A stretch of 64,000 nt of DNA, from NCBI RefSeq assembly GCF_900199635.1, contig NZ_LT962687.1, positions 494,863 through 558,862 on the forward strand, in the 5' to 3' direction. This DNA comes from Anaerotruncus massiliensis (ex Togo et al. 2026). Lineage in GTDB: Bacteria > Bacillota > Clostridia > Oscillospirales > Ruminococcaceae. Below, in pieces: positions 23,864 to 45,213 of the stretch; position 1 is the first letter of the stretch; each line of letters opens with the position of its first letter. The notes beneath the pieces are model-generated. The model was given only the letters and a program-made list of their open reading frames with translations, had not been told where the DNA came from and did no database searches. Position numbers and translations under genes: made by a program.

Positions 23864-24733
23864 TCAGCCGCAGCCGCAGCCGCCGCGCTTATTGCGCTTG
23901 GCGTAGGGGGCGGGCTGGGGCGCGCAGCAGCAGTTGTTCATGCCGATCGGATTGGGCACAAAGGAGCTGTAGACCGGCGGGGTCTCCACACAGCCGCAGG
24001 CCGGCTTCTCGGGCATCGCGGCGGCGCATCCGCAGGCGGGGTCCGCAGCGGCGGCACAGCCGCAGGTCGTTTCCGTCACGACGGCCGCGCATCCGCAGAC
24101 GGTGTCCGGGATCGCGTTCGCGCATCCGCAGGCAGGCTCCGCGGCGGGAACCGCACATCCGCACCCGCAGGCGTTGTTGACCGGCGCGCAGGAGCGGGGC
24201 TGGGCGCAGGGCTGGCAGGGCTGGCAGGGTTGCGCCTGCTGGGCGCAGCCACAGGCGGGAGCAGCCACGGCGTCGGGCGTGCAGGGAGGCGAAAAGAGCT
24301 TCTGGGGCGGGTTGCATTTTTTATCGAAGCTCGGGTTGAACGCGTAGAAGTTCTTCGCGTCGAGGTTCTCCTGGGTAATGCGCAGCGCGTCGCCGAACCG
24401 CTGGAAATGCACGACTTCGCGTTCCCGCAGGAACTTGATCGGGTCGCGCACGTCGGGATCGTCGGCGAGGCGCAGGATGTTGTCGTAGGTCTTGCGGGCC
24501 TTCTGCTCGGCCGCGAGGTCCTCGTAAAGGTCGGCAAGGGTGTCGCCGGAGACCTGGAGCTCGGAGGTCGAGAAGGGGTAGCCCGAGGCGGCCTGCGGGT
24601 AGACGCCCGCGGTGTGGTCGACAAAGTAGGTGTCGAAGCCGCTGCGCTTGATCTCTTCGGGCGTCATGCAGCGGGTGAGCTGGTAGATGATCGCGGAAAC
24701 CATCTCGATGTGGGCGAGCTCTTTGGCGCAAGG
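23864..24733 (-). pseudogene. cotJC: 3' part of a CotJC-type spore coat Mn catalase, split by the prophage
   Basis: About 290 residues of a manganese-catalase-family spore coat protein remain. They begin inside the AKELAHIEM ligand motif, run through YDNILRLADDPDV and the second ligand motif REREVVHFQRFG, and end in NFYAFNPSFDK. About 65 N-terminal residues, including the first glutamate metal ligand of the family, are missing, so the remnant cannot be an active catalase. Upstream the frame runs into the serine recombinase gene, with no proper start. After the catalase part comes an unusual tail of about 130 residues with 26 cysteines in CGC motifs. In Bacillus cotJC belongs to a mother-cell coat operon. 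Confidence 0.85.
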
Positions 24734-24746
24734 ATTATATATATGA
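24716..24746. other. Probable prophage attachment junction (left end)
   Basis: CotJC similarity stops abruptly at about 24728, within the codons for AKE, while the recombinase stop codon is at 24747-24749. The crossover should lie in the about 20 bases between, around GGCGCAAGGATTATATATAT. The exact core cannot be fixed without the opposite junction or an empty site. Confidence 0.6.
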
Positions 24747-26309
24747 CTATGGAAGACGCATGAATAGGTCGACCTTGAAGTCGCTGGGATCACCGTGCCG
24801 CCCACCCCGCGCCTTGGTGTATACGATCTTGTCGATGACCTCTTTCAACAGCTGGTTCAGCTGCGCCGGATCCATGGTTGAATCAAATACATTTAGTAGA
24901 TTCTCTACTTTTGGTATAATCTTTTTACGTCCGGCCTCGGCTTGCCGATACGTATCGGCTTCATGCTGCAGCTCGTCGAGCTGGTTCTGTAATTCCTGCC
25001 TGCGGCTGGAGATGCTTTGGGTTCGAGACAGGAAGATCTCAACGCTGTATATTTCCTGCTCAAGCAGGTCGTGCGCCTTGCTCAGCTGGTGATCCAGCGT
25101 CGCCAGCTCCTTTTCAAGGCGGCGGACGCTCTTCTCTGCGGCCTCGATACCCGCGGGCTTTTTGTCATGGACTCCTTCGATCGACAAACGATATTCCTCC
25201 AACCATTCTTGGAGCGACGTCCGGACCTTCGCGAGGATAAGCGGCAAATCGGCGCTGACGTTCGGGCAACCGGGGTATTGGCAGATCATAGATGCTTGGC
25301 GATTTGCATATGGCCTCCGTACCATCATGTGGCCGCAAACACCGCAGACGAGGAGTCCCGCGAGGGGATTTCGCATTTGCTTATGCGCGTCAAACCGGAT
25401 AGGCGGGTTGTGTGCAATGTTCTCCTGGGCCGCATCCCATGTCTCCCGTGAGATGATCGGCTCGTGGCGGCCTTGCGTGACGATATAGTCGCGTTTTTTA
25501 GGACGCGAAATTTTCACATCGCCGCCCGAGATCGACTTGACGCCCGGCCGGCGGTTCCACCGGAGCTGCCCGCAGTAAACGGGGTTTTCCAGAATTGCCA
25601 CAACAGAGTTGTAGGTCCACAAACCGCCCTTCCGGGTCGGTATGTGCAGGTCGTTGAGCCGGTTTGCGATTTTCTTGGAGCCCAGCCTTGTGGTTGTTCC
25701 GTCAGAATCAGTGGCCCCGAGCGTGTAAAGCTCAAAAATGAGGCGAACGGTTTCAGCCTCGTCGGGATCGGGCTCGAGCGTCCATCCCTTTTCATTTTGC
25801 AGCTTTACGCGCGTATATCCATAGGGCGGTATGTTGCCGGTGTACTTCCCCTCCATGACGGAGGCAACCCGCCCGCGCTGCAGGCGACGGTTGATCGTTT
25901 TATACTCACGGCGGCTCATGAAAAGGCCGAACTCGAAATACTCTTCGTCGAACTCGTTGTTGGGGTCGTAGATCTTCGCTGGTGTGACGATCTTGGTGTG
26001 GCTCAGCTTGAATGCCTGCGCCACGATGCCCTGATCGATCGTATCCCCGCGCGCCAGACGTTCCACCTCAACGACCAGGACGCCCTCCCACATGCCGCGC
26101 TCGACCTCGTCGAGCAGCTGTTGCATGACGGGACGGGCGGCAATACTATCCCCGGAGACGATCTCTCGGTATATTTTCGAGACGGGCAGATTCAGGCGCT
26201 TTGCCGCTCGCAAAAGCTCATCCTGGTGGCGGGCGAGGGTATCCCCCGCTCCATGGGCCTCGGCCTCGACGTCTGCACGGGATTTTCTCAGGTACATCAG
26301 ATAGGGCAT
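24747..26309 (-). CDS. Large serine recombinase (phage integrase)
   Basis: A 520-residue serine integrase. The catalytic N-terminal resolvase domain has the nucleophile in YLRKSRAD (Ser10), with the conserved Arg and ERLARGD segments. A recombinase domain follows, then a zinc ribbon with cysteines in LLVCGVCG and MICQYPGC. A long coiled coil from about residue 370 controls directionality. AAGGAG lies 7 bases before the ATG. Its 3' end abuts the broken cotJC gene, so it acts at this site. Excision would need a separate directionality factor, which I could not identify. Confidence 0.95.
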   Translation of the reverse strand: MPYLMYLRKSRADVEAEAHGAGDTLARHQDELLRAAKRLNLPVSKIYREIVSGDSIAARPVMQQLLDEVERGMWEGVLVVEVERLARGDTIDQGIVAQAFKLSHTKIVTPAKIYDPNNEFDEEYFEFGLFMSRREYKTINRRLQRGRVASVMEGKYTGNIPPYGYTRVKLQNEKGWTLEPDPDEAETVRLIFELYTLGATDSDGTTTRLGSKKIANRLNDLHIPTRKGGLWTYNSVVAILENPVYCGQLRWNRRPGVKSISGGDVKISRPKKRDYIVTQGRHEPIISRETWDAAQENIAHNPPIRFDAHKQMRNPLAGLLVCGVCGHMMVRRPYANRQASMICQYPGCPNVSADLPLILAKVRTSLQEWLEEYRLSIEGVHDKKPAGIEAAEKSVRRLEKELATLDHQLSKAHDLLEQEIYSVEIFLSRTQSISSRRQELQNQLDELQHEADTYRQAEAGRKKIIPKVENLLNVFDSTMDPAQLNQLLKEVIDKIVYTKARGGRHGDPSDFKVDLFMRLP

Positions 26310-26328
26310 AACCGACTCCTTAAAAGTG

Positions 26329-26352
26329 ATGCCGCCCCAATCGAGGGCGGCA
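26329..26352 (-). terminator. Possible terminator between the lipoprotein and recombinase genes
   Basis: On the minus strand GCCGCCC and GGGCGGC pair around a short loop, followed only by ATCACTTTT. The weak T-tract means it may merely attenuate transcription into the recombinase gene. Confidence 0.4.
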
Positions 26353-26358
26353 TAATCA

Positions 26359-26904
26359 TTATCTTGCTATTTCATACGTTAGTGTTGTCTTCCCGTCATT
26401 CTTCTCAGAATCAAACTGCCCAATTACTATGTAAGAGTAGTTCGAAATATCCTCGTCAGTATAGTACAGCATATAAAGGCGATCATTTTCGGCATCACGC
26501 CATGCCCCAGAACTTAAATTATAATACTCATTCCCACTTTTATCGAACAGCTGGACAGTTCCCCGTTCTGACATGAATGCCTTTAAAGCATCAAAATCAC
26601 TAACGACTTCGACGGCAATGACATTTTTCAGGACTTTTTCCGTGACATCAAACTCGGGATGATACGCCACGCTTTCAATGCTTAATCCGCCTGATGGAGG
26701 GAGGAAGTAGGAATGCTGGAATTCGCCGATTCGAGAATTCTCACTGTCCGCAATGTCCTCGATTGTTTTTTCGGGATCGGCGGCAGGTACCGGCTCTGAT
26801 GCGGGTGAAGTCTGCTGGGGGGCGGCCTCCGCAGCCTCGCCGCAAGCAATAAGAGGGAAGGCTAAGCACAATGACAGAAGCAAAGCTGTAACAATTCTTC
26901 TCAT
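26359..26904 (-). CDS. Prophage-encoded putative lipoprotein
   Basis: A 181-residue protein with a signal peptide ending in the lipobox LIAC (Cys about residue 21), then a Pro/Ala/Glu-rich linker and a mixed alpha/beta body without a recognised family. AGGAGGG precedes the ATG. Placed between the recombinase and the repressor, on the strand used in lysogeny, it is a candidate lysogenic-conversion gene displayed on the host surface; superinfection exclusion is one possible role. That role is an inference from location only. Confidence 0.75.
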   Translation of the reverse strand: MRRIVTALLLSLCLAFPLIACGEAAEAAPQQTSPASEPVPAADPEKTIEDIADSENSRIGEFQHSYFLPPSGGLSIESVAYHPEFDVTEKVLKNVIAVEVVSDFDALKAFMSERGTVQLFDKSGNEYYNLSSGAWRDAENDRLYMLYYTDEDISNYSYIVIGQFDSEKNDGKTTLTYEIAR

Positions 26905-27010
26905 AAAATTCCCTCCTGATTTTATTGACTATCCTACGTTGTCCTTTGACGAATAAAGCAGCGCCTCCGGTGTCAGTCAAAGACCACAAAGATGATGTTT
27001 CCTTGCCGCC

Positions 27011-27373
27011 TTATCCGACACGCCCCGGCAAGACATCAGCCTCCTTAGCTTTGTCCTCCAGTCTTGCGAGGATCTTCCCACGCTCAAGTTCTGGCAGGGC
27101 ATTGTAGTACTTGAGCAGTTCGCGCTCGTCATCCCGGATGGGTGGTGAGCTTTTTTCTTTTCCGGTAATAAGATACTCCAGAGAGACGCCCAAAAATTCC
27201 GATATAAGAGCAAGCCTGTCAGATGATGGGTTGGTACCTTTTCTCTTCCAGTCACTGATGTTTCCGGTACTGATGTTGGCATATTTGCCTAGTGCGGCTG
27301 CAGTCAGGTGTTTCTCTTTCAGAATCTCATGGACGCGGTACCCTATATCAGCAATAAATTTCACCCCCAACAA
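27011..27373 (-). CDS. CI-like phage repressor (XRE family)
   Basis: A 120-residue protein with an N-terminal helix-turn-helix of the XRE/Cro-CI type (LGKYANISTGNISDWKRKG, about residues 28-46, followed by LALISEFLGVSLEYLITG) and a short C-terminal dimerisation region (LLKYYNALPELERGKILARLEDKA). It has no LexA-like peptidase domain, so induction would not be by simple RecA-stimulated autocleavage. The start is one of two adjacent TTG codons (27373 or 27370), unusual but preceded by AAAGAG. It faces a strong divergent promoter, the classical immunity layout. Confidence 0.85.
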   Translation of the reverse strand: MLGVKFIADIGYRVHEILKEKHLTAAALGKYANISTGNISDWKRKGTNPSSDRLALISEFLGVSLEYLITGKEKSSPPIRDDERELLKYYNALPELERGKILARLEDKAKEADVLPGRVG

Positions 27374-27384
27374 AACACTCTTTA

Positions 27385-27428
27385 ATCAGAATAAAAGTAT
27401 TGACAAAACTCTGATATAAGAATATAAT
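27385..27428 (+). promoter_or_regulatory. Strong early promoter with operator-like repeats
   Basis: TTGACA (27400-27405) and TATAAT (27423-27428) are both perfect and 17 bases apart. The half-sites ATCAGA (27385-27390) and TCTGAT (27410-27415) form an inverted repeat around the -35. CTGATATAAG (27411-27420) within the spacer differs in two places from the CTGATATCAG palindromes near 58785. This is the likely lytic promoter controlled by the adjacent repressor. Confidence 0.85.
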
Positions 27429-27434
27429 GCAATT

Positions 27435-27635
27435 GCACAGTAAAATATGCGACGAAAAAACAACCTGACCAGCGCCCTGCCAAAAGCTGCGGTCAAATTG
27501 TCCTCGTTGCGCGACCTGACGGGCCATTCCACACATCCGATTCGCCAGAAACAGCACCCCAAATACGTACTTCCCATACGTTGTAACGCCATGTTCTGTC
27601 AAACGCGGTCCGTCAGGTCTATTTTACTTTTTTTT
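27435..27635 (+). ncRNA. Candidate structured leader or small RNA
   Basis: About 280 bases lie between the early promoter and the first well-supported start codon. Within them GACCTGACGGGCC (27513-27525) and GGTCCGTCAGGTC (27607-27619) can pair with one mismatch and enclose about 80 bases. They are followed by a U-rich tract ending in eight T (27628-27635). A transcript from the promoter would then be about 200 nt. The frame is open here, but there is no ribosome binding site and the peptide looks random, so a regulatory RNA or attenuator is more likely than a protein. Confidence 0.35.
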
Positions 27636-27710
27636 GCCGAAAAAGTCAACAATTGTTACCTTTTATCGGCTTGGCGCATTGGCCAAAATCACGAAAGGAA
27701 GCGACAGCAT

Positions 27711-28115
27711 ATGAGAGTGGCCCTAGACATGGAGAAGCTCCAGATGATCATCTATTACACCAACAGCATCCGGATGTCCGCCGCGCGCCGTGAAGAGCTG
27801 CATCAGGTTGTCCTGCAGGGGATTCTGGTGGGGGAGGTCGATCTTGACTTGCTTTTCAGTGACGCGCCTCAGCTGACTGCCACGAATATTCGGACGTTTT
27901 TGCGGTCCTACGTTGAGGCCGGAGGCAACGAAGGAGAGGTTCGCGCACAGGAGTTGTACGACGCTTACGTCGAGTGGTGCGGCGATATGGCGGAACCTTC
28001 GGAGACCGTCTCGACGTTCGGCAGGTATTTGCGTGAAATCGGCATCCGGAAGATCAAGCGGGCGGATGCGAACTACTACCGTCTGCCTGCCGGCATGGAG
28101 GAGGATGACGGATGA
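27711..28115 (+). CDS. Early phage protein with winged-helix-like domain
   Basis: A 134-residue protein starting MRVALDMEKLQM, with GAAAGGAAG upstream. The C-terminal half (LYDAYVEWCGD ... FGRYLREIGIRKIKR ... YYRLP) resembles the winged-helix module found at the end of phage and plasmid primase-helicases. It may therefore bind DNA or the replication machinery. The frame is open further upstream, but no start there has a ribosome binding site. Its stop overlaps the next start (ATGA). Confidence 0.7.
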   Translation: MRVALDMEKLQMIIYYTNSIRMSAARREELHQVVLQGILVGEVDLDLLFSDAPQLTATNIRTFLRSYVEAGGNEGEVRAQELYDAYVEWCGDMAEPSETVSTFGRYLREIGIRKIKRADANYYRLPAGMEEDDG

Positions 28116-28336
28116 TCTCGTCTCCAGAGCTGCGCGGGGAGATCCGGAAGCAGATGGATATCCGCCGCTGGGACTCCGAAGATCTGGGGAGAGCGACCGG
28201 ATATGCCGGCAGCACCGTGCGCAAATACATGTGCGACACGACCAAGGCCGCTTCGGACGCATTTGAGCGAGCCGTCTGCAGGGCACTCCAGATCGATCCC
28301 CTCATGTACATATTATCGCACAAGGAGGCGGTTTAG
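28112..28336 (+). CDS. Small HTH-like phage protein
   Basis: A 74-residue protein. A helix-turn-helix-like stretch (SEDLGRATGYAGSTVRKYM) is followed by a segment typical of small XRE regulators (AFERAVCRALQIDP). It overlaps the preceding gene by 4 bases and precedes another HTH gene, so it belongs to the early regulatory operon. A Cro-like role is plausible but not shown. Confidence 0.65.
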   Translation: MISSPELRGEIRKQMDIRRWDSEDLGRATGYAGSTVRKYMCDTTKAASDAFERAVCRALQIDPLMYILSHKEAV

Positions 28337-28339
28337 GCC

Positions 28340-28819
28340 ATGAGCGACTGCTGCAAGAATTATTACAAGATGTGCAGGGAAAACGCCTCCCTGACGCAGG
28401 AGTATGCGGCCGGCGCGCTGGGGGTATCGGTCCGGCAGCTTAGCGATTACGAAAACGACAAGGCCCCGGTGCCGGACGACGTGGTGGACCGGATGTGCAC
28501 GGCGTACGACACGAAATACCTTGCCTTGTGGCATCTCAAAAACAAGACCCGCCTCGGCCAGTATCTTCCGGATTTTTTCGAGCCAGAGTCGGTGGGAGAC
28601 ATGATGTTTTCCCTTGCGCTCGCAGAGGACGGCGTTTCGGGGGCCTACGCGGCAATCAAAGAGATCTACCGTGACCGCCAGTTGAATCCGGAGGAACTGC
28701 CCGCCATGCGCAAAGCGGTGAGCGAGGCGCAGGAGGCTCTGAACAACCTGACATCCATTGTACTGTATGCGCAGCAGAGAATTGACGAGGTCGAAAAACA
28801 GCGGGACAGGCAAGATTGA
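28340..28819 (+). CDS. XRE-family regulator with C-terminal helical extension
   Basis: A 159-residue protein. The N-terminal XRE helix-turn-helix (SLTQEYAAGALGVSVRQLSDYENDKAPVPDDVV) is followed by about 80 residues of mainly helical sequence with a coiled-coil end. AAGGAGGCGG lies before the ATG. It is the third DNA-binding protein in the early operon after the CI-like repressor. It may be the antagonist or a replication regulator. Confidence 0.72.
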   Translation: MSDCCKNYYKMCRENASLTQEYAAGALGVSVRQLSDYENDKAPVPDDVVDRMCTAYDTKYLALWHLKNKTRLGQYLPDFFEPESVGDMMFSLALAEDGVSGAYAAIKEIYRDRQLNPEELPAMRKAVSEAQEALNNLTSIVLYAQQRIDEVEKQRDRQD

Positions 28820-28855
28820 GGAAGTCCACGTCATAACATAAAGCGAGGTGATGGC

Positions 28856-29101
28856 ATGGAAAAGCGGCCGCGCTCTGGACCGGAGCTGCTGGAGTATCTC
28901 TACTCGGGGAAAGTGGTCAAGGAAATGGCCGTGGGGTCGACGCAGGTGCGCTTTTTTGACACATGCTATCGAGACGCCTCGCCCGAAGAGCTTGAAAAGC
29001 GCAGGGCGCGGATCAACGCGGCTGCACTGAATTGCATCATGAGCTGGGGAAAGGATGAAAAAAAGGATGAACAAAGCAGTCATGACCGGGCGGCTGGTTG
29101 A
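28856..29101 (+). CDS. Small phage protein of unknown function
   Basis: An 81-residue hydrophilic protein with the segment MAVGSTQVRFFDTCYRDASP and a charged, helical C-terminus (EELEKRRARI). AAGCGAGGTGATGGC precedes the ATG. Its 3' end overlaps the ssb start by about 45 bases, indicating coupled translation. I do not recognise a family. Confidence 0.55.
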   Translation: MEKRPRSGPELLEYLYSGKVVKEMAVGSTQVRFFDTCYRDASPEELEKRRARINAAALNCIMSWGKDEKKDEQSSHDRAAG

Positions 29102-29507
29102 GACTCCGGAGCTGAGGCATACGCCCAACGGCATCTCGGTGTGCCGCTTCCGCCTGGCAGTGGACAGGCCCTACCTTGTGGATGGGAAACGCACAGCGGA
29201 TTTCTTCGACGTGATCGCCTGGCGGCAGTCGGCGGAATTCGTCTGTAAGTACTTCACAAAAGGCAAATTCATCATCGTCGAAGGTCGCTTTGAAACCCGC
29301 AGCTACGACGACCGCAACGGAGCCCGCCGCCGTGCGGTCGAGCTGATCGTCGATCACGTCGAATTTGGCGGCGACAGCAAGAGGGCGGACGACGGAAGGG
29401 GCTTGCCGGATCCGCCGCCTGAAACCAACGGACAAGCTACGCCGCCTGCCCCCGTGAGCGGTGATTTTTCAGAGATGTCCGCCCCCGCGGACGATCTACC
29501 ATTTTAA
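29055..29507 (+). CDS. ssb: Single-stranded DNA-binding protein
   Basis: A 150-residue SSB with the OB-fold core (MTGRLVETPELRHTPNG, FFDVIAWRQSAEFV, GKFIIVEGRFETRSY) and a Pro/Glu-rich tail ending in DDLPF, the acidic tip that recruits replication and repair proteins. Two in-frame ATGs (29055 and 29067) are possible; the second gives the more typical MNKAVMTGRL start. As part of the early operon it serves phage DNA replication. Confidence 0.92.
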   Translation: MKKRMNKAVMTGRLVETPELRHTPNGISVCRFRLAVDRPYLVDGKRTADFFDVIAWRQSAEFVCKYFTKGKFIIVEGRFETRSYDDRNGARRRAVELIVDHVEFGGDSKRADDGRGLPDPPPETNGQATPPAPVSGDFSEMSAPADDLPF

Positions 29508-29542
29508 ATGCGGCGGCAACGCCGTATCCGGGAGGAGACAAC

Positions 29543-30337
29543 ATGAGAGTCATCAGCATCATCAACCTCAAGGGCGGAGTGGGAAAGACGGTCAGCGCGA
29601 TCAACATTGCCCATATTCTGGCCGCGAACTACAAAGCCCGCGTCCTGCTGATCGACAACGACAAGCAGGGGAATGCCTCGAAGTTTTTTGAGCTGCACAG
29701 CTACGACCTGCCAAGCGTGGCCGACGTTCTCACCGGCCGCGCGATGCCGATTGCCGAGGTGGTGCGCCATTCCCAATACGACCGGCTCGATTTGGTGCCT
29801 GCAAACATGGGTCTGCTTACCGCCAACAGTTCGCTGCTGGTGGATACGAGCCGCACAAGGGATTATCGGATGCGCAGCTCCCTCGAGGCCGTCGCCGATC
29901 ATTACGACTGGTGCGTCATCGACAACGCGCCCGATATCAATATCAGCGTGATCAACGCGCTCATGGCCAGCGATGACGTCCTGATCCCGGTCAAGATCGA
30001 TCGGTTTGCATTCGACGGCCTGCAGGAGCTCGTCGAGCAGATCGACGACATACGCACCAGCAACGACCGTCTGCGGCTGGCGGGCTGCTTTTTCACCATG
30101 TACCAGCGTAATCGCGTCAGCCGGGAGGGGGACGACTGGATGCGGCAGGAACAGCCCTATCCCGTCTTTGAGACGCAGATCCGCAATACCGTCAAGGTGA
30201 CTGAAACCACCTATGCAGGGCGGCCGCTGCTGGATTACTCCCCCAATTGCACGGCTTCAAAGGACTACCTTCGATTGGTGGCCGAATATCTCGAGGGGAG
30301 GGACTGCGCATGGCAAAATTCAGTGTTCGGGACATGA
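29543..30337 (+). CDS. ParA-family ATPase
   Basis: A 264-residue ParA/Soj-type ATPase with the deviant Walker A KGGVGKT (residues 10-16), the LLIDNDKQGNAS switch region and WCVIDNAPD as Walker B. GGGAGGAG precedes the ATG. The next gene, a DUF3102 protein, overlaps its end and probably plays the ParB-like partner role. The pair is common on mobile elements of gut Clostridia. Here it suggests that the phage can replicate or segregate as a plasmid, or that the pair assists replication-focus positioning. Confidence 0.9.
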   Translation: MRVISIINLKGGVGKTVSAINIAHILAANYKARVLLIDNDKQGNASKFFELHSYDLPSVADVLTGRAMPIAEVVRHSQYDRLDLVPANMGLLTANSSLLVDTSRTRDYRMRSSLEAVADHYDWCVIDNAPDINISVINALMASDDVLIPVKIDRFAFDGLQELVEQIDDIRTSNDRLRLAGCFFTMYQRNRVSREGDDWMRQEQPYPVFETQIRNTVKVTETTYAGRPLLDYSPNCTASKDYLRLVAEYLEGRDCAWQNSVFGT

Positions 30338-31353
30338 TGGCGGCACCGGCCGATCCCCCTGCTCCTGTGGATGTTGGACAGCCCGCGCTGCGCACGATCG
30401 ATACGATCACGGCTGAGATCAATTACTATAAGCAGCAGACCGCGCAGAATATCATCGAGATCGGCCGCCGCCTCATCGAGGCGAAGCAAAAACTGCCACA
30501 TGGACAATGGACCAACTGGCTGAGGGATACCGTGGAGTTCAGCCAGCAGACGGCTACGAACTTTATGAACATCGCCATGCAGTATTCAAATTCCCAACCG
30601 GTTGGGAATTTGAGCTATACCAAGCTGGTGGCCCTTCTGCAGGTTCCCGACGCCGAGCGCGAAGATTTTCTTGCCAAGAAGCATGTTGTAAATGGCGAGG
30701 AAAAGACCGTCGACGAGATGAGCAAGCGGGAGTTTGAGGCAGTGGTGAAGGAGCGCAACAAAGCCGTCAAGCAGCTCGCCGACGAGAAACTTCGGGCCAG
30801 TCAGGCAGAGGAAAGTCTAAGGGCCTCGAGAACATTGGCGGGGGACCGAGCACGTCGGATTTTTGATTTGGAAAAACAGATAGAGGAGCTCAAAAATGCG
30901 CCTATCGAGGTCGCGGTCGCCGAGATTAGTGCCGAGGAACACGAGAATATCCGGCAGGAGGCGTTCGAGGCTGCACGGCATGAGATGAAGGAGGAGTACG
31001 ACCGAATCGACCAAGAGCTGACGGACAAGCTCAAGAGAGTTTTTGAACTGCGACGGGAAAATATGTCCTTGCGTAATCAACTCGAGGACGCGGAAAAAAA
31101 CAGTGTCGAGGCTCTGCCGGAGGAAGTAACCCGGGATGCGACTGCGGACTTCTTGGACGCGGTGGGATCCGCCTATCGAATCTATAAGTCGATCATCGAG
31201 CTCTCTGCCCCGGATTGCGCGGCCACGGGAATTAAGGCCTGCAGGAGGCGGCTGGACGAGCTGCAGGCGGAGCTGAGCCAGCTGGAAGCCCGTGCCGCCA
31301 ATCTGGCAATCGCCGGCGACGACGAACTGCCAGGGGAGGAAGACGATGATTAG
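30310..31353 (+). CDS. DUF3102 protein, candidate ParA partner
   Basis: A 347-residue protein. The N-terminal DUF3102 domain (NIIEIGRRLIEAKQKLPHGQW, SQQTATNFMNIAMQY) is followed by a long coiled coil from about residue 140 (ERNKAVKQLADEKLRASQ onward). Acidic residues (GEEDDD) end it. The start at 30310 has GAGGGGAGGG upstream and overlaps parA. DUF3102 proteins are regularly linked to ParA genes and are suspected DNA-binding partition proteins. A perfect palindrome lies inside this gene. Confidence 0.82.
   Translation: MAKFSVRDMMAAPADPPAPVDVGQPALRTIDTITAEINYYKQQTAQNIIEIGRRLIEAKQKLPHGQWTNWLRDTVEFSQQTATNFMNIAMQYSNSQPVGNLSYTKLVALLQVPDAEREDFLAKKHVVNGEEKTVDEMSKREFEAVVKERNKAVKQLADEKLRASQAEESLRASRTLAGDRARRIFDLEKQIEELKNAPIEVAVAEISAEEHENIRQEAFEAARHEMKEEYDRIDQELTDKLKRVFELRRENMSLRNQLEDAEKNSVEALPEEVTRDATADFLDAVGSAYRIYKSIIELSAPDCAATGIKACRRRLDELQAELSQLEARAANLAIAGDDELPGEEDDD
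30586..30613. repeat. 28-bp perfect palindrome inside the DUF3102 gene
   Basis: The half-site TCAAATTCCCAACC (30586-30599) is followed immediately by its exact reverse complement (30600-30613) with no spacer. It encodes SNSQPVGNLSY, so it is also coding. A perfect match of 14 per arm is far beyond chance and points to a protein-binding site, such as a centromere-like site for the ParA/DUF3102 pair, or a cruciform. Confidence 0.85.
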
Positions 31354-31444
31354 CTGCAGCACGATTCATACGCTTCCGCCAGAAAGGAAGGCGGGCCCTG
31401 CCGGCCACAAACCACAGAAGCGCGTCAAAAGGAGTGACAAATTT

Positions 31445-31618
31445 ATGAACTTCATGGTGTACTATTTCCTCGTGGGTATTTCTCTTTCATGTGGGATAGC
31501 GATTGTGCTTGCGGCAACTCACCTGGTGGCGGGATTGCTCCATCGGGAGAAGCCGCGATATAAGATCAAACTGATGCGCAGTTTGGGAGATGAGGTCAGA
31601 AATGAGCGCGGAGCGTAA
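31445..31618 (+). CDS. Small single-span membrane protein
   Basis: A 57-residue protein with one strong membrane helix (YYFLVGISLSCGIAIVLAA) and a basic tail (REKPRYKIKLMR). AAAAGGAGTG eight bases upstream makes ATG 31445 the best start. A longer form from ATG 31346, which overlaps the DUF3102 stop, would add 33 residues. Its end overlaps the next gene. Function unknown. Confidence 0.6.
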   Translation: MNFMVYYFLVGISLSCGIAIVLAATHLVAGLLHREKPRYKIKLMRSLGDEVRNERGA

Positions 31619-32663
31619 GGGTTGGGATCCGGACGAGGTCGTCAAACTGCGGCAGATGGTCGCCTTACATAAATCGGCGTCGGAGATCGCAGCCGACCTC
31701 GGTAGATCAGAGATATCGATCCGCTCGAAAGCGCAGGCTCTGGGGCTCGGTTTCCGCGCGAAAATTGAGCCGGAGCCTCACGGATGGGGAGGGAAGCACA
31801 TGATTTCATCGAAGGAAAGTACCGATATAAAGCCCTATAAAAAATCAGATAAAAATTTGAGAAGAAAAAAGGTGACGACCGGATGTGATACTGTGTATGA
31901 TAGAGTCCCAGAGGACTTGCGAAGCCTGCGCCAGTGGGTCTGCCACAGATTCCCAGACAAGGCCCCGCTCTGCCCCTTCCCGGACGAGCGCGGCGATTTG
32001 ACGTTTGCCTCCTGCAACAAGCCGGAGACATGGGGGAGTTTCGAGGCCGCGGTCAAGGCCGTTTCCCTCGGCTGGGCCAAAGGCATCGGGATCGAGTTTG
32101 CCAACGGCATCGCGGGGATCGACATCGATCACTGCGTCGACGGCGGGGAGCTATCTGAGCTGGCCAGGGAGATCGTCGAGACGTTTCGGAGTTATACGGA
32201 GATATCCCCTTCTGGTACCGGTGTGCATATCCTCTTTCGCGGCAAGCTGCCCGGGACCGGCTGCAAGCTGCCGATGCTCGGCCTCGAGGTCTACGACAGC
32301 GGCCGGTATTTTACCGTTACGGGCAACGCCTACCTTGATCCGGATGGCGACGCATATCCTCTGCGTGACTGCACCGAGGAGCTCGGCGCATTTTATAAGC
32401 GGTACTTCGATAATACTCTGTCCGAGGAGACGAAGTTGCAAGTAAAGTCCACTGCATCTCCTGCGGATGCTCAAAAGAGGGCGGCGTCAACTCAGCGGCA
32501 CTTGAAGCTCTTGAGTGCCATACAGGAGACATTGGGCAAGGCGGGAACGATGATGGCGGAAAACGCCGGCGCGCCCGAAGCATGGAGGCTATTTGGGCAG
32601 GTTCAGGCGGGGCTTGGATATCTTATGGATATGATACAGCAGGACGCATCGGAGGTGAGATAA
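31602..32663 (+). CDS. HTH plus primase-like domain protein (first copy, no helicase)
   Basis: A 353-residue protein. The first about 60 residues form an HTH-like segment (DEVVKLRQMVALHKSASEIAADLGR). Residues about 95-295 are an NrS-1-type primase-polymerase domain (QWVCHRFPDKAPLCPF, GIAGIDIDHCVDGGE, YTEISPSGTGVHILFRGKLP, YDSGRYFTVTGNAY), with the catalytic acidic IDIDH motif. This domain is almost identical to the N-terminus of the primase-helicase at 33045. Instead of a helicase it ends in about 55 unrelated residues. It may supply primase alone, or be a relic of duplication. Confidence 0.78.
   Translation: MSAERKGWDPDEVVKLRQMVALHKSASEIAADLGRSEISIRSKAQALGLGFRAKIEPEPHGWGGKHMISSKESTDIKPYKKSDKNLRRKKVTTGCDTVYDRVPEDLRSLRQWVCHRFPDKAPLCPFPDERGDLTFASCNKPETWGSFEAAVKAVSLGWAKGIGIEFANGIAGIDIDHCVDGGELSELAREIVETFRSYTEISPSGTGVHILFRGKLPGTGCKLPMLGLEVYDSGRYFTVTGNAYLDPDGDAYPLRDCTEELGAFYKRYFDNTLSEETKLQVKSTASPADAQKRAASTQRHLKLLSAIQETLGKAGTMMAENAGAPEAWRLFGQVQAGLGYLMDMIQQDASEVR
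31873..32495 (+). repeat. About 620-bp direct repeat, copy 1 (primase domain)
   Basis: Matches 33025-33645 at a constant offset of 1152 bases over most of its length with only a few percent substitutions, plus one 3-base difference near the end. It starts near the GGATGTGATACTGTGTA sequence and ends at GGCGGCGTCA-CTCAG. Confidence 0.9.
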
Positions 32664-33020
32664 GTGCTGCAGGACGGCAATCAGCTCGCTATCGTCACTG
32701 CCGCAAAATGTGAGGCCGGCCGCGGAAAAGCGGACGGTCTTACTGTATGCGAGCTGACTTGGATGATCATCGCGGGGGACCAGTCTGGTCAGAGCCTTGC
32801 AACGCGGTATTTCTACGAAGACCAGCTGCCACGCAGGCTGATGGACGACTTTCTGCGGCTTGGCCTTCGGGTGAGAGGCCCGGAGGAGGTCGACAAGGTG
32901 CGTGACCAGCTGGTTGGGCGTATCGCGCGCCTGACCCTCAAAACCGACGAGGGAAAACAGCGGGTCTTTGTCGGTAATTACGTGGGGTGCGGAGACCCCG
33001 CCCAATATCATCCCGCATGA
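32664..33020 (+). CDS. Putative DUF669-like phage replication protein
   Basis: A 118-residue protein with GTG start at 32664 after GGAGGTGAG. Its central part (VCELTWMIIAGDQSGQSLATRYFYEDQLP) and C-terminal RIARLTLKTDEGKQRVFVGNYVG look like DUF669-type single-strand DNA-associated proteins found beside phage primases. It is sandwiched between the two primase-domain copies. Assignment is tentative. Confidence 0.6.
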   Translation: MLQDGNQLAIVTAAKCEAGRGKADGLTVCELTWMIIAGDQSGQSLATRYFYEDQLPRRLMDDFLRLGLRVRGPEEVDKVRDQLVGRIARLTLKTDEGKQRVFVGNYVGCGDPAQYHPA

Positions 33021-33024
33021 CGAT

Positions 33025-33645
33025 AGACGATCGGATGTGATACTGTGTACGATAGAGTCCCAGAGGGCTTGCGAAGCCTGCGCCAGTGGGTCTGCCACAG
33101 ATTCCCCGACAAGGCCCCGCTCTGCCCCTTCCCGGACGAACGCGGCGATTTGACGTTTGCCTCCTGCAACAAGCCGGAGACATGGGGGAGTTTCGAGGCC
33201 GCGGTCAAGGCCGTTTCCCTCGGCTGGGCCAAAGGCATCGGGATCGAATTTGCCAACGGCATCGCGGGGATCGACATCGATCACTGCGTCGACGGCGGGG
33301 AGCTATCCGAGCTGGCCAGGGAGATCGTCGAGACGTTTCGGAGTTATACGGAGATATCCCCTTCCGGTACCGGCGTGCATATCCTCTTTCGCGGCAAGCT
33401 GCCCGGGACCGGCCGCAAGCTGCCGATGCTCGGCCTCGAGGTCTACGACAGCGGCCGGTATTTTACCGTTACGGGCAACGCCTACCTTGATCCGGATGGC
33501 GACGCATATCCTCTGCGCGACTGCACCGAGGAGCTCGGCGCATTTTATAAGCGGTACTTCGATGATACTCCGCCCGAGCAGACGAAGTTGCAAACAAAGT
33601 CTGCATCTCCTGCGGATACTCAAAAGAGGGCGGCGTCAGCTCAGG
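33025..33645 (+). repeat. About 620-bp direct repeat, copy 2 (primase domain)
   Basis: Second copy of the primase-domain repeat, here continuing in frame into the helicase. Scattered single-base differences from copy 1 show that both copies are real and not an assembly duplicate. Confidence 0.9.
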
Positions 33646-35495
33646 GGGAAGCGGTCCGCGATCTCTCGGACGAGGAGATCCTGGAGATCGCCTACAAATC
33701 CAGAAACGGAGAGGCATTCCGGCGGCTTTATGACGGGACCTATTCTGCTGCAGAGGTGCCACAGCGCAAGGACGGTACGCCCGATCAATCCTCAATCGAT
33801 ATGCGGCTGGCCAATCATCTGGCATTTTGGTACGGCGCGGACCCGGACCGGGTGGACCGTATGTTCCGTCGATCTGCGCTCTTTCGGCCCAAATGGGACC
33901 GTTCAGTCGGTGGAGGCAAGACTTACGGCCAGAGGACGGTGGAAATCGCCTGCAGGGGGCGTAAAGACGTGTTTGTTCCCTATGACCGGCCAAGTGATTC
34001 CCTGCAGCCGCCGATGCCGGACGAGCCGCCCCCGCCGTCCCCGGGCAAATCGGCCGCGGCGGCCTCCGACCTGCCTGCGGAGGAGGAAGACCAGGTCATC
34101 CCTCAAAATCCCACAAAGTATACGCACGACGACACCGGCAACGCGCATCGGTTCCGCGACGCCAACTACAAGGACCTGCGCTATGACCACGTTGATAAGG
34201 TGTGGTATTGCTGGACAGGGAAGCGATGGCAGGAGGACCAGACCGGGGAGGTCAAGCGGCGGGCCGACGAACTGCTCGACGAGATGGAGGGGGAGGCAAA
34301 GCGCAAACCAGACGACGAGGCCGCGCCGCTGCTCAAGCTCGTGCGGCGTACACGCAGCTCCAAGAGCAAGGAGGCCATGATCAAGGAGGCGCAGCACCTC
34401 GAGGGCATACCGGTGCTGCCCAACGAGTTTGACCGCTATAAGGATGCCCTCAATGTGCAGAACGGTGTGGTCAATCTCAAGACCGGCCGCCTGCGCCCGC
34501 ATAGCCGCAAGCTCATGCTGTCGATGCTGGCCGACGTAGACTTCAATCCGGACGCCAAGTGCCCCCGCTGGATCCACTTCCTCGAGGACGTCACGAGGGG
34601 AGATCAGGAACTTCAACTGTACCTGCAGCGCACGGTCGGTTACTGCCTGACCGGCTCGACGATCGAACAGTGTGTGTTTTTCCTCTTCGGCAACGGCAAA
34701 AACGGCAAAAGCACCTTCCTTGACACGATCAGCTCGATCATGGGGGACTACGCCAAGAACAGCCAAGCTGAAACGGTCATGCAAAAGGACCGTGGGAGCA
34801 GGGGCGCGAGCTCGGATGTCGCGCGGCTTAAAGGCGCGCGCCTCGTTACGACGAGCGAGCCCAACGACGGCTGCCGCCTCGACGAGGGGATCGTAAAGCA
34901 GATGACCGGCGGCGAAAAGATTACGGCCCGGATGCTCTATAAGGCCGAGATCGAATATCGCCCCGAGTTCAAGATCATGATGGGCACCAACGTCCGGCCA
35001 AAGATCACCGGCTCGGACGACGGTATCTGGAGGCGCGTCAAGATGATTCCTTTCACGGCACAGATCCCGGCGAACAAAATTGATCGGCGGCTGGGGGATA
35101 AGCTGCGCGAGGAAAAATCGGGTATCCTCAACTGGGCGATCGCCGGCGCGATCGGCTGGTATAACGAGGGGCTGCCGCCGTGCGCGGCGGTGGACTACGC
35201 CAACGAGGAGTATCGCAAGGATATGGACCGGATGCAGCAGTTTGTTGAGGACTGCCTGACACGCACACCGGGCAACTCGCTGCAGGCGATGGTTTTATAC
35301 GGGGTCTACCGGCGCTGGTGCGAGCAGAATGGAGAGCGATACCCGCTCTCCACAACCAAATTTTCAATGGAGTTGCAGGATCACTACGGATTCCGCAAGC
35401 AGAAAAACGCCCGCTTCAACGAGTACATGGACGTCGACTTTACGGAGGTCGGGCAGCAGTTCTGCCTTCTTTCCCCCGACTCCCCCCACCCCTGA
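33045..35495 (+). CDS. Phage primase-helicase (NrS-1-type primase, SF3/D5 helicase)
   Basis: An 816-residue replication protein. It has an N-terminal primase domain with IDIDHCVDG and SPSGTGVHILFRG, then a small helical region (residues about 205-310) and a D5-N-like domain. A superfamily 3 helicase follows, with Walker A GNGKNGKST near residue 549, a Walker B-like segment (ARLVTTSEPND) and sensor motif MMGTNVRP. A C-terminal winged helix ends it (VLYGVYRRWCEQNGERYPLS). The GTG start at 33045 lacks a good ribosome binding site and an in-frame stop lies at 33024. The original N-terminal HTH segment therefore now belongs only to the first copy. Confidence 0.88.
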   Translation: MYDRVPEGLRSLRQWVCHRFPDKAPLCPFPDERGDLTFASCNKPETWGSFEAAVKAVSLGWAKGIGIEFANGIAGIDIDHCVDGGELSELAREIVETFRSYTEISPSGTGVHILFRGKLPGTGRKLPMLGLEVYDSGRYFTVTGNAYLDPDGDAYPLRDCTEELGAFYKRYFDDTPPEQTKLQTKSASPADTQKRAASAQGEAVRDLSDEEILEIAYKSRNGEAFRRLYDGTYSAAEVPQRKDGTPDQSSIDMRLANHLAFWYGADPDRVDRMFRRSALFRPKWDRSVGGGKTYGQRTVEIACRGRKDVFVPYDRPSDSLQPPMPDEPPPPSPGKSAAAASDLPAEEEDQVIPQNPTKYTHDDTGNAHRFRDANYKDLRYDHVDKVWYCWTGKRWQEDQTGEVKRRADELLDEMEGEAKRKPDDEAAPLLKLVRRTRSSKSKEAMIKEAQHLEGIPVLPNEFDRYKDALNVQNGVVNLKTGRLRPHSRKLMLSMLADVDFNPDAKCPRWIHFLEDVTRGDQELQLYLQRTVGYCLTGSTIEQCVFFLFGNGKNGKSTFLDTISSIMGDYAKNSQAETVMQKDRGSRGASSDVARLKGARLVTTSEPNDGCRLDEGIVKQMTGGEKITARMLYKAEIEYRPEFKIMMGTNVRPKITGSDDGIWRRVKMIPFTAQIPANKIDRRLGDKLREEKSGILNWAIAGAIGWYNEGLPPCAAVDYANEEYRKDMDRMQQFVEDCLTRTPGNSLQAMVLYGVYRRWCEQNGERYPLSTTKFSMELQDHYGFRKQKNARFNEYMDVDFTEVGQQFCLLSPDSPHP

Positions 35496-35496
35496 T

Positions 35497-35598
35497 GGAG
35501 ACGATGCCAGCTTGGAGGATATCACCGGAACTTTCCCCTAGCATTGAAAAACGCTAGGAAAAGTTCGTCTGGTAGCCTCCAACGTTAGAAACGTCTCC
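35497..35598 (+). other. About 100-nt nested inverted repeat
   Basis: Three nested stems share one axis: GGAGACG (35497-35503) with CGTCTCC (35592-35598), TTGGAGG (35512-35518) with CCTCCAA (35576-35582), and GAACTTTCCCCTAGC (35528-35542) with GCTAGGAAAAGTTC (35553-35566). Internal loops are of nearly equal length on both sides. It starts two bases after the primase-helicase stop. No T-tract follows, so it is not a simple terminator; a structured RNA, cruciform or replication origin is possible. Confidence 0.7.
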
Positions 35599-35680
35599 AC
35601 AAATCCACTATCCATAGGCTTTTGTGTTGAATCTCCGCTCCATATCCCTTCCATACCATCCAATAGGAGGACTCTCTTTT

Positions 35681-36097
35681 ATGACGCTCGAAGAAAAGAA
35701 GAATAAGCTGAGGAAATATGCCATAGCGATTGATAGACTCGCGCGGAAGTGCAGAGAGGCGGACCGCTGGGATAGCATGGCCGAGGGCACGGGCGGCATC
35801 GTGCAGGCTGGGCGTCGGCGGGGAGAGCCAGACGTGATCAAGGAGACGGCGATCGCCGTGCGGCAGGAGTGCGAGCAGCTTGCCTCGGAGGCCAACGACC
35901 TGCGGCGGGAGCTGGTAACCGCGCTCGACCAGGTCGCTGACGATGAGCGGCGGGAGCTGCTCGAACGGAAGTACCTCGAGGGAAAGAGCAACGCCCAGCT
36001 CTCGGCAGAGTACGGTGTGTGCGAGCGTACCGTGCGCCGGCGGCTGGGCACCGCGATTCGAGACCTCGATCGATTCAGCGGGTATTTCATGGGGTAG
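35681..36097 (+). CDS. ArpU/sigma-70 region 4-like late transcription regulator
   Basis: A 138-residue protein. A helical N-terminal half is followed by a sigma-region-4-like helix-turn-helix at the C-terminus (LERKYLEGKSNAQLSAEYGVCERTVRRRLG). Such proteins sit at the end of the early region of Firmicute phages and activate late gene transcription. AGGAGG lies 10 bases before the ATG. Directly downstream are five 10-bp iterons and the late promoter, its likely targets. Confidence 0.82.
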   Translation: MTLEEKKNKLRKYAIAIDRLARKCREADRWDSMAEGTGGIVQAGRRRGEPDVIKETAIAVRQECEQLASEANDLRRELVTALDQVADDERRELLERKYLEGKSNAQLSAEYGVCERTVRRRLGTAIRDLDRFSGYFMG

Positions 36098-36098
36098 G

Positions 36099-36144
36099 TG
36101 TCCGCAAATGTCCGGAAATGTCCGGGTTTGTCCGCATTTGTCCA
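36099..36144. repeat. Five TGTCCG iterons spaced exactly 10 bp
   Basis: TGTCC starts at 36099, 36109, 36119, 36129 and 36139, once per helical turn; the first four read TGTCCG and the fifth TGTCCA. They lie immediately upstream of the late promoter -35 and immediately after the ArpU-like gene. Related TTTGTCCGCC occurs again at about 36478. Confidence 0.88.
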
Positions 36145-36145
36145 C

Positions 36146-36175
36146 TTGAATTCCATACCGTTCTTGACGTATAAT
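36146..36175 (+). promoter_or_regulatory. Late promoter
   Basis: TTGAAT (36146-36151) and a perfect TATAAT (36170-36175) are 18 bases apart. The iteron array abuts the -35, as expected for an activated promoter. It would drive the packaging, head, tail and lysis genes. Confidence 0.8.
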
Positions 36176-36184
36176 AATGCTTAG

Positions 36185-36217
36185 AGAGATGCGCTCGAAA
36201 GGGCGTGTCTCTTTTTT
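36185..36217 (+). terminator. Terminator/attenuator at the start of the late transcript
   Basis: AGAGATGCGCTC and GGGCGTGTCTCT pair over 12 bp (including G-U pairs) around a GAAA tetraloop and are followed by six T. It starts about 10 bases after the -10 element, so it would stop almost every transcript unless overridden. Confidence 0.82.
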
Positions 36218-36663
36218 GATGCCCAAATTCAAATTGGGCCGGATTCAAGTCTCCGGAATGGATTCAAATCGCCGCTCGAAAGTTATCCACCAGTCATCAA
36301 CGCTGAGGCCCCTGGGCGGGCGTTTTCCACCGTCTCCGAGCAGGAGCCGTCGCGATATTGCCAGCCTGCCGTATGCGTCAAGGTACTTCCCCGGGGGTAC
36401 CCCGCGCGCGGGTCTTGCGAGGCCCGGCAATCACCCGCATTAAAAACCAAAAAAGTGGTTTGAAATCTTGATCGGGGTTTGTCCGCCAGGTTACGTCCGA
36501 ATTTTGTGAAGAATGCCGAACGCCCGCGCGGCAGAACCGGCCCGGGGCCGGGGCGGCGGGAACCGGCAAAGTGACGAAAAATTGTCCTGTGGTGGTTGGC
36601 GCTGGATGGAATGGAAGAGGAATCGGACGGCACCGTCCCGGGGGACAGGGGAGGAGCGGAATA
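36218..36663. other. Non-coding late leader with candidate cos region
   Basis: About 445 bases without a supported gene between the attenuator and the small terminase gene. It holds a small GCCCAA/TTGGGC hairpin at about 36220-36239 and three overlapping GC palindromes at 36389-36412. It also has an AT-rich stretch with repeated AAA runs near 36442-36470, and the small terminase ribosome binding site at its end. Location and symmetry suggest the packaging (cos or pac) site. Confidence 0.5.
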
Positions 36664-37215
36664 ATGGCGGAAAAGGATGAGCTGTATTTCGAGGGTGGGG
36701 CGATTATCGCCTGTACGCGGCTCACGGCGGAGTATTTCGGTGTGACGCCGGCGACACTCTCCAACTGGATGCGTGCCGGGTGCCCGCGCTATAAGCATGG
36801 ATACTGGGACATCCGTGCGGTCACTGACTGGCGTGGCAAGCAGGAGGGGGAGAAGCTCGCGGCGGCTGCGGCAAGCGATCCCTCAAAGCTGACGCCTGCT
36901 CAGCAGAAGGTACACTACGAGGCACAGCTGAAAGAGGTACAGCTGGAGGCTGCGCGGCTGCGCAATCGGTTTAACAGCGGCATGTACCTGGAGCGGGCGA
37001 CGGTTGTGGATGAGCTTGCAAAGTACTTCATCGTGCTCAAACACTCGCTGCTCGGCTTGGGGCACGAACTGAGTCTGATGGTGTCTCCCTACGTCGACGC
37101 GGACCGGGGCCGCCAGATTGACAGGACGATTGACGAGCGCGTCAAGGATATGCTCGAGCAGATGGCGGTTGAGGGAGTGTACGACGCAAAGACCAGCACC
37201 ACGGAGGCGATTTGA
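36664..37215 (+). CDS. Terminase small subunit (Nu1-like)
   Basis: A 183-residue protein with an N-terminal winged-helix-like DNA-binding segment (LTAEYFGVTPATLSNWMRAGCPRYKHGYWDIRAVTDW), typical of lambda gpNu1 relatives, and a long helical C-terminus for oligomerisation. GGGGAGGAG precedes the ATG at 36664. It overlaps the large terminase gene. It would recognise the packaging site just upstream. Confidence 0.85.
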   Translation: MAEKDELYFEGGAIIACTRLTAEYFGVTPATLSNWMRAGCPRYKHGYWDIRAVTDWRGKQEGEKLAAAAASDPSKLTPAQQKVHYEAQLKEVQLEAARLRNRFNSGMYLERATVVDELAKYFIVLKHSLLGLGHELSLMVSPYVDADRGRQIDRTIDERVKDMLEQMAVEGVYDAKTSTTEAI

Positions 37216-39059: not shown

Positions 39060-39271
39060 TGACACTGGAGGAACTCAAGGCGCGACACACGGCTGTCCTG
39101 CGGGCGATCAATAAGATCGAAAACGGGGCACAGGAGTATCGGATTGGACAGAGGACGGTCCGGTATGGGGATTTGGCTACGCTCTACAAGCAGGAGTCCG
39201 ACCTGAGTAAAGAGATCTCACGGTTGGAGCGCCCGCGCTCGACAGTGGCCGTTTTGGGCCGGAGGAGGTGA
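39059..39271 (+). CDS. gpW-like head-tail joining protein
   Basis: A 70-residue protein of the lambda gpW family: two helices flanking a short beta hairpin (TLEELKARHTAVLRAI, QRTVRYGDLATLYKQESDL). It fills the connector between portal and tail. The ATG overlaps the terminase stop (TAATG). The position between terminase and portal is the same as in lambda. Confidence 0.85.
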   Translation: MTLEELKARHTAVLRAINKIENGAQEYRIGQRTVRYGDLATLYKQESDLSKEISRLERPRSTVAVLGRRR

Positions 39272-39275
39272 TGAT

Positions 39276-43020: not shown

Positions 43021-43035
43021 GAGGGGAGGATTAGA

Positions 43036-43368
43036 ATGATGGCGACTTATGTTCAGAAGGGCGAAAACATCAATTACAAGAATGGCGGATCGGAAAAAAT
43101 CGCGTACGGTGATGTCGTGGTCATCTCCGACCGGATCGGAGTTGCCTCTGTGGATATTTCCGCAGGAGAGACCGGCGTCATAAGCTTGGAGGGCGTCTAT
43201 GAGATGCCTGCCGAGGCAACTGCGGCATTTGAGGTCGGGCAGACAGTGTATTGGGACACCACCAATAAACGCCTCACGGCGACGAAGCCTGCCTCCGGGG
43301 CGATCGTCGCAGGTGTTGCGATCGAGCCGAAAGCAACCGCGGCCGCGCTGGCGCTCGTCAAGCTGTGA
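43036..43368 (+). CDS. Capsid decoration-type protein (DUF2190)
   Basis: A 110-residue DUF2190 family protein (TYVQKGENINYKN, GDVVVISDRIGVASVDI, VGQTVYWDTTNKRLTAT, IVAGVAIEPKA). The beta-rich fold caps or decorates the capsid surface. GGGAGGA precedes the ATG (43036; ATG 43039 is also possible). It lies directly after the capsid gene. Confidence 0.85.
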   Translation: MMATYVQKGENINYKNGGSEKIAYGDVVVISDRIGVASVDISAGETGVISLEGVYEMPAEATAAFEVGQTVYWDTTNKRLTATKPASGAIVAGVAIEPKATAAALALVKL

Positions 43369-43377
43369 GGTGCGGCG

Positions 43378-43629
43378 ATGATTAGATTGACAAACCCGCT
43401 GATCCACGACGGAAGAGTTTGCCCTGCCGGCGAAATGATCATACTGGATGAAGAATTCGAGCGCGCGATCGTCGCTGCCGGCAACGCGGAGCAGGTCGGC
43501 CCGAGCGAGGCGGGAGCGGCCCTCCCGGAACCTGAGCCGGATGGCGAGACACCAGAAGAACGGGAGCCGCAGGAAGAATCGGAGGACTTAGAAATACGGC
43601 TGGGCCGTCCCGGCCGTGGAGGGTTCTGA
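43378..43629 (+). CDS. Small head-region protein
   Basis: An 83-residue protein beginning MIRLTNPLIHDGRVCPAG, with an acidic, Pro/Glu-rich second half. It overlaps the following start by one base. Similar short proteins occur between the capsid and connector genes of Clostridia phages; no function can be assigned. Confidence 0.6.
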   Translation: MIRLTNPLIHDGRVCPAGEMIILDEEFERAIVAAGNAEQVGPSEAGAALPEPEPDGETPEEREPQEESEDLEIRLGRPGRGGF

Positions 43630-43949: not shown

Positions 43950-43950
43950 A

Positions 43951-45203: not shown

Positions 45204-45213
45204 GAGTGATAGC

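Follow-up and report, generated by a model that had tools for sequence, protein, structure and literature searches.

The window, a stretch of 64,000 nucleotides that corresponds to C7:494863-558862 of the 3.1-Mb host assembly, contains a Mn-catalase/CotJC open reading frame at 23864-24730 on the minus strand that lacks the first 63 positions of the family profile (PF05067, 5.7e-26, profile about 63/64-198). Next to it is a large serine recombinase gene, whose stop codon lies 23 bases from the core at which the gene breaks off (Table 1). A preliminary description of this DNA had recognized both genes; it put the missing part at about 65 residues and the distance to the recombinase at about 15 bases, which was right to within a few units. 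A search of the host assembly with the Mn-catalase family located the N-terminal half of cotJC (profile 1-68) at C7:559237-559437 on the minus strand, or 64375-64575 in window numbering. This half starts 375 bases past the window, at the other prophage end, where it had been expected. Besides the two halves, the same search returned one uninterrupted Mn-catalase paralog and a weak fourth match. Both halves are present on a single 3.03-Mb contig, and the prophage that splits them measures about 39.66 kb. The DNA between them has PHROG matches to the small and large terminase subunits, tail sheath, tape measure, baseplate and endolysin, and because these cover packaging, tail and lysis, the intervening DNA can be considered a tailed prophage, as had been proposed. 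With the gene set of a temperate tailed phage, the element looks, by its PHROG matches, like a complete temperate phage. Two of its open reading frames (31590-32663 and 33045-35495) have a near-identical primase-like N-terminal segment in their translations, an internal duplication. The host also has spoIVA.

Table 1. Features of the split cotJC gene and of the prophage, in window positions
Feature	Position	Strand	Evidence
cotJC 3' part, core (codon 64-65) through stop codon	23864..24723	-	PF05067 5.7e-26; joined frame
attR core AAGA, repeated at 64382-64385 just beyond the window	24720..24723	-	comparison of the ends, joined frame, dyad
Prophage between the cotJC halves, runs on to about 64385	24724..64000		both halves, join, PHROG
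Large serine recombinase (integrase), 520 aa	24747..26309	-	PF00239, PF07508; phrog_95, 3e-102
CI-type HTH repressor	27011..27373	-	PF01381, PF07022
Candidate recombination directionality factor, 81 aa (inferred)	28856..29101	+	family member, E 4.8e-15; co-occurs with the recombinase type
Single-strand binding protein	29055..29507	+	PF00436
Terminase small and large subunits, two genes	36571..39059	+	phrog_57, phrog_15
Tail sheath	45160..46647	+	phrog_23
Tape measure protein	47684..49330	+	phrog_1535
Baseplate wedge protein	51513..52604	+	phrog_6
Endolysin	57377..58171	+	phrog_291

The two halves can be joined at a 4-base core, AAGA (TCTT on the plus strand), which is repeated at both ends of the element, so that the matching att core that had been called for is present. 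The joined frame, ...KGMLTDIGTEELAHIEMVSAII..., has no stop and no indel and runs through the motif GTEELAH. Recombination between the two short direct copies of the core would thus restore the frame, and precise excision, as predicted in the preliminary description, would rebuild a conserved CotJC. The longest in-register run shared by the window pair is just these 4 bases, which 7% of shifted registers equal, and the in-register matches amount to 16 of 42 bases, above all 70 shifted registers. We propose GA as the exchanged dinucleotide within the core. When the phage ends are joined at the core, the inferred attP has a 50-bp dyad centred on GA with 16 of 25 pairs (4 of 500 shuffles were as good), and the attP of a relative, L036, has a dyad centred on GA too (17 of 25 pairs; 0 of 500 shuffles). 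Viral contigs of related phage show both forms of this end. Three of them (L036, L038 and L067) are identical in their overlaps and continue beyond the core into DNA other than cotJC, which reaches holin and endolysin genes, with three more open reading frames there that have no PHROG match; a further contig, L037, is identical to this group and stops at the core. Five further contigs continue into cotJC; their identity at the recombinase end is 86-91% for L039, L041 and L042 and about 82-83% for L040 and L066. The L036 group and this integrated kin separate exactly at the core. L036, L038 and L067 probably represent the unintegrated phage form. The exact attP of the window phage, free of host DNA, was not found among the viral contigs. 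Related genomes with an empty site, also anticipated, do exist: cotJC is continuous across the break of the window in three congeners (G064, G225 and G278), and in a fourth, G157, it is split there too.

With the joined CotJC (199 aa) as a query, a match was obtained in 199 of the 297 genomes of the host's family. We picked by hand 96 genomes with partial or multiple matches and searched them again; 94 have cotJC-like pieces and two (G022 and G056) have the paralog only. After removal by hand of full-length matches of about 32-37% identity, which are the paralogous Mn-catalase, and of weak low-identity matches, two or more abutting pieces are present in at least 76 of the 297 genomes. Nearly all breaks fall at four sites: site A around codon 30-34 (29 genomes), site B around codon 61-66, which is the site in the window (41 genomes), site C around codon 134-137 (10 genomes) and site D around codon 172-177 (19 genomes). 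Two sites are occupied in 13 genomes and three sites in five (G005, G112, G129, G219 and G239). A few pieces end elsewhere, for example at 114 in G034, 85 in G121 and 97 in G253, and some of these ends are perhaps contig ends. When pieces lie on the same contig, 36 of the 42 pairs are collinear, separate and 2-91 kb apart; the remaining pairs are out of order (G132 and G145), result from a frameshift (one pair in G027) or skip a piece (one pair in G239). On G100:C83 and for one pair on G005:C23, the pieces lie on opposite strands of one contig, possibly by inversions between inserts. The control gene spoIVA had a match in 250 of the same 297 genomes and more than one match in 11, a rough comparison, as spoIVA was searched once at E 0.001 and cotJC was searched again at E 0.1. 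The Mn-catalase paralog (roughly 34% identical) appears as one piece in the lists of those re-searched genomes. Seven of the 11 genomes with multiple spoIVA matches also have a split cotJC (G157, G278, G150, G273, G268, G007 and G027), and in these spoIVA may likewise be interrupted, or it may be duplicated.

Split cotJC also recurs in other families of the class. A class-wide draw gave a cotJC match in 195 of 293 genomes, and 55 of these, again hand-picked as partial or multi-match, were searched a second time. At least 46 of the 55 have a split cotJC, in at least 24 families besides that of the host; G302, G353, G413 and G446 are doubtful under the lenient split rule, and without them the numbers are at least 42 genomes and at least 22 families. 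In Blautia parvula NBRC 113351, whose chromosome is complete, cotJC is present in four pieces, in order and on one strand (94485, 87515, 6233340 and 6210334; about 131 kb across the record start). This genome has a second, intact copy of cotJC, and the site-A join of the split copy is in frame. The gene in pieces is a recurrent, multi-site target, also beyond the host's family, and the preliminary description, which had treated cotJC as an isolated case, was wrong about the scale.

Sites A to D fall at the motifs GGPDGE, GTEELAH, AAEQKA and HFQRFG, respectively, which we take from Mn-catalase structures to be the Mn-ligand motifs; the window is split at the second. When non-overlapping 42-bp stretches are ranked by conservation over 226 distinct pieces, the top five are those with the four motifs and the gene start; stretches centred on the breaks proper rank lower, at the 78th-89th percentile of conservation. 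Large serine recombinases adjoin the breaks at all four sites (Pfam, nine proteins). Three recombinases at site B are 42-52% identical to that of the window, and the other matches, which come from all four sites, are 20-31% identical, indicating that several lineages are involved. For the relatives, joins cut at the longest in-register run resulted in an uninterrupted CotJC in 26 of 31 junctions, and in 23 of the 31 this run beats at least 95% of the shifted registers. The automatic in-register join fails in five (G013, G027, G140, G225 and G228), of which G027 is visibly degenerate, with stops and a frameshift in the host cotJC. In a second set, five of seven joins succeed; those at site B of G469 and of G318 fail, perhaps due to stacked inserts or degeneration.

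The pattern of substitutions argues that the split gene is still in use. The congeners G111 and G190 share the same site-B element (4,950 bases at 94% identity), with recombinases that are 96% identical (pN 0.025, pS 0.281, dS 0.35). Over the 133 codons of the cotJC 3' piece, pN is 0.003 (dN 0.003), pS 0.393 and dS 0.56. Divergence is slightly lower in the element than in the host DNA (dS 0.35 versus 0.56; identity 94% versus 88%), and therefore a later exchange of the element in these genomes is possible. The same pair provides a natural empty site at D, where the gene is continuous in G111 and has a 5.8-kb insert in G190. Another insert, at site A, is shared by G416, G469 and G503, with dS values of 0.64, 0.66 and 0.27 for the recombinase, 0.47, 0.45 and 0.18 for a GH44 gene, and 0.46, 0.42 and 0.16 for the cotJC 3' piece, of which the dN values are 0.017, 0.017 and 0. 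Judged from these values, this insert has come down with the chromosome and the changes in cotJC were almost all silent, although the join at site B of G469 fails. Since nearly all changes in cotJC are silent where sister species share an insert, the split gene is very probably still rebuilt. With G225, the nearest relative of the window, dN/dS is 0.06 and 0.03 for the two cotJC halves; as G225 is split elsewhere, at site C, these low values show past constraint but do not demonstrate selection after the insertion in the window's own lineage.

Relatives of the window recombinase were also found next to other genes. In 52 of 80 named genome loci with such a relative, a cotJC piece broken at site B lies within 2.3 kb of the recombinase; in the other 28, no cotJC piece was found in the flank, even with 150 diverse cotJC queries. 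Among the viral loci a cotJC piece is present in 15 of 72, and many others end within 500 bases of the recombinase. Ten right-flank open reading frames of the loci without cotJC comprise five LysM/GH18 or GH18 fragments, two asparagine synthases, one ATP synthase-type subunit, one with a sub-threshold CBM77 match and one without a match. In L250, L258, L268, L274 and L277, the recombinase adjoins LysM-GH18 or GH18 genes that are broken inside the GH18 domain. Such genes include spore-lytic members, and they may be a second split sporulation gene. In L247 (4530-5267) and L260 (4698-5432), it adjoins the C-terminal part of an asparagine synthase gene, and open reading frames in L224, L263 and L267 resemble this piece by eye. 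AsnO-type genes are sporulation linked in B. subtilis.

Some inserts carry other genes as well. In G416 (L341), which resembles Ruminiclostridium cellulolyticum, the gene order is resolvase, GH5-CBM17/28-SLH and GH44-dockerin. This order matches the cel5I locus of R. cellulolyticum, which, in the available part of its description, has cel44O and a resolvase on either side (PMC4976890), and the GH5 and GH44 genes of G416 can therefore be read as cel5I and cel44O. The GH44 gene is within the site-A insert, common to the three species mentioned above (G416, G469 and G503), and the GH5 gene is within the site-B insert. R. cellulolyticum, a laboratory organism for which gene disruption is reported in the same text (PMC4976890), appears to carry two cotJC inserts with well-studied cellulases. 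Two small site-A inserts contain an Amidase_3 cell wall amidase (L160:3748-4491, by Pfam; L179:1431-2174, by eye).

For excision, a serine recombinase needs a directionality factor, and one gene in the window is a candidate. An iterative profile search from one seed defined a small-protein family, with lengths mostly of about 50-80 aa, that has a member at 28856-29101 (Table 1). Of 109 distinct loci that have this recombinase type and an upstream stretch of 3.3 kb or more, 68 contain a member; of 166 loci that lack the recombinase type, most of which are not phage early regions, none (0) does. The gene is on the recombinase strand in 9 of 69 instances. In L207, from an Alkaliphilus assembly, a 3.2-kb insert consists of the recombinase, a protein of this small family and about 1.2 kb more. 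For six members of the family, neither PHROG nor Pfam gave a match better than E 0.03, and three had no NCBIfam match at 0.01. The clustering of small open reading frames was done with masking, as unmasked clusters were mostly recombinase reverse strands and cotJC itself. A 68-aa open reading frame in the 2-kb insert of G194 had no relative among the other loci. We infer that the window protein is a candidate recombination directionality factor that would be made in the mother cell. Promoters were inspected by looking for CATANNNTA-type -10 boxes upstream of the candidate factor at 19 places (18 usable) and upstream of the genes of the window. These AT-rich regions have scattered -10 matches, and CATAACATA in the window overlaps the ribosome-binding region and has no matching -35. 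For these reasons we claim no promoter; upstream of neither the recombinase nor the candidate factor did a convincing mother-cell promoter turn up.

Taken together, we think it likely that the prophage entered an attB in cotJC by means of its serine recombinase and that it leaves precisely, with cotJC back in frame, in the sporulating mother cell. The recombinase would integrate attP into attB within the stretch that codes for the second Mn-ligand motif, and the same enzyme, together with a directionality factor such as the candidate in Table 1, would reverse the reaction so that the prophage can exit precisely. By analogy with sigK and spsM, excision would occur in the mother cell during sporulation, the genome bound for the spore would stay lysogenic, and the doomed mother cell would make intact CotJC. 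In B. subtilis, the cotJ operon depends on sigma-E. The cost of an insertion is low when the gene serves a terminal cell only and the insert can be removed in that cell, and this may be why cotJC elsewhere tolerates as many as three inserts.

The proposal has to be weighed against other explanations. Many of the relatives are fragmented draft or metagenome assemblies, and the split could be an artefact of assembly. The halves in the window, however, are on one 3.03-Mb contig, pieces are collinear in complete or single-contig chromosomes (Blautia parvula, G416, G469, G318 and G117), and the breaks cluster at four sites; we therefore rejected this idea, to which we give practically no chance. 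Alternatively, ordinary prophage integration may have killed a dispensable coat gene, of which the pieces are relics. This would fit the mild phenotypes that the accessible text of two papers describes for CotJC-type mutants (PMC11222575, PMC12122855), the stops or frameshifts in some split copies (G027) and the intact second cotJC copy in Blautia parvula and in Clostridium sp. KNHs205. We consider it quite improbable, as dN/dS is far below 1 on split pieces where sister species share the insert, 26 of 31 tested junctions join in frame and even inserts as small as 2-4 kb have kept the recombinase at their junction.

It is also conceivable that cotJC is restored by plain prophage induction, or by random excision at low frequency, without control by sporulation. 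The resemblance of the window element to a complete temperate phage would agree with this, and so would the outcome of the promoter inspection before the recombinase and the candidate factor. Moreover, in C. botulinum the excised yin element was seen at every time point, according to the sections of that report available (PMC10747680). On the other hand, some inserts consist of the recombinase and one or a few other genes, and for inserts with hardly more than a recombinase, phage induction is not the reason for excision. Selection on cotJC also implies regular use. We regard excision without sporulation control as possible but rather unlikely, and excision in the sporulating mother cell as the better description of the system.

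The literature on cotJC, phage and excision, on Mn catalase and on sporulation-gene insertions, to the extent that its text was accessible, contains no split cotJC; Mageeney et al. 2020, whose subject is regulated gene integrity and whose abstract reportedly does not name cotJC, was outside its scope. The term 'cotJ' is absent from the main texts of four papers (PMC5595907, PMC4191935, PMC10747680, PMC13141910). As in the skin element in sigK of B. subtilis and C. difficile, which a large serine recombinase excises, prophage-like DNA with such a recombinase splits a presumed mother-cell gene here, and for the C. difficile element the available text describes a 72-aa directionality factor under sigma-E and SpoIIID (PMC5025042). 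In contrast to skin, the target here is a gene for a coat enzyme and not for a sigma factor, there are four attB sites, several inserts may be present at once, and excision from cotJC is a prediction from sequence. SP-beta of B. subtilis is, in the part of the paper seen, also a complete temperate prophage in a spore-envelope gene (PMC4191935), but its target is spsM and not cotJC. The elements vfbin, vrin, gin and yin follow the same principle in other sporulation genes (spoVFB, spoVR, gerE and yabG), and gin illustrates that inserts need not be phages (PMC5595907, PMC4191935, PMC10747680). As far as these texts describe them, there is one insertion per gene, whereas cotJC has up to three. 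An att site of phi027 of C. difficile borders a CotJC-type gene, cotG, as well (PMC11222575, PMC12122855); unlike the prophage studied here, it is described in the accessible text as adjoining cotG without splitting it, and not as a rearrangement.

Programmed rearrangements during sporulation have so far concerned a handful of genes, with one insert per gene in the described cases available to us. New here is one recurrent gene with four attB sites at active-site codons and up to three inserts, and no less than a quarter of the genomes sampled in the host's family have one or more of these sites occupied. We are inclined to believe that, over much of the Clostridia as a class, cotJC exists effectively as a gene in pieces at the DNA level, where several distant serine recombinase lineages would each use one of four Mn-ligand motifs, and where up to three inserts per genome, of 2 to about 100 kb, would all need excision. 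The clade of the window recombinase would be partly specialized for terminal mother-cell genes, as it also borders LysM-GH18 and asparagine synthase, types with sporulation members, and in cellulolytic clostridia the inserts would be long-lived homes of cel5I and cel44O. Spore formers may then routinely rebuild cotJC from pieces. Questions that can now be put to the test are what makes terminal-cell genes safe harbours, by what means a cell coordinates more than one excision, and how a phage is worn down to a minimal excision unit. The candidate directionality factors, with their paired recombinases, could serve as tools for genome engineering.

Two observations concern the host side of the window. 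The CotJC protein of the host has a long, Cys-rich C-terminal tail with repeated CGC motifs (23864-24300). Farther along, at 20688-22991 on the minus strand, there is a 767-aa repeat-containing open reading frame that has no Pfam match and is mirrored by a long open frame on the plus strand.
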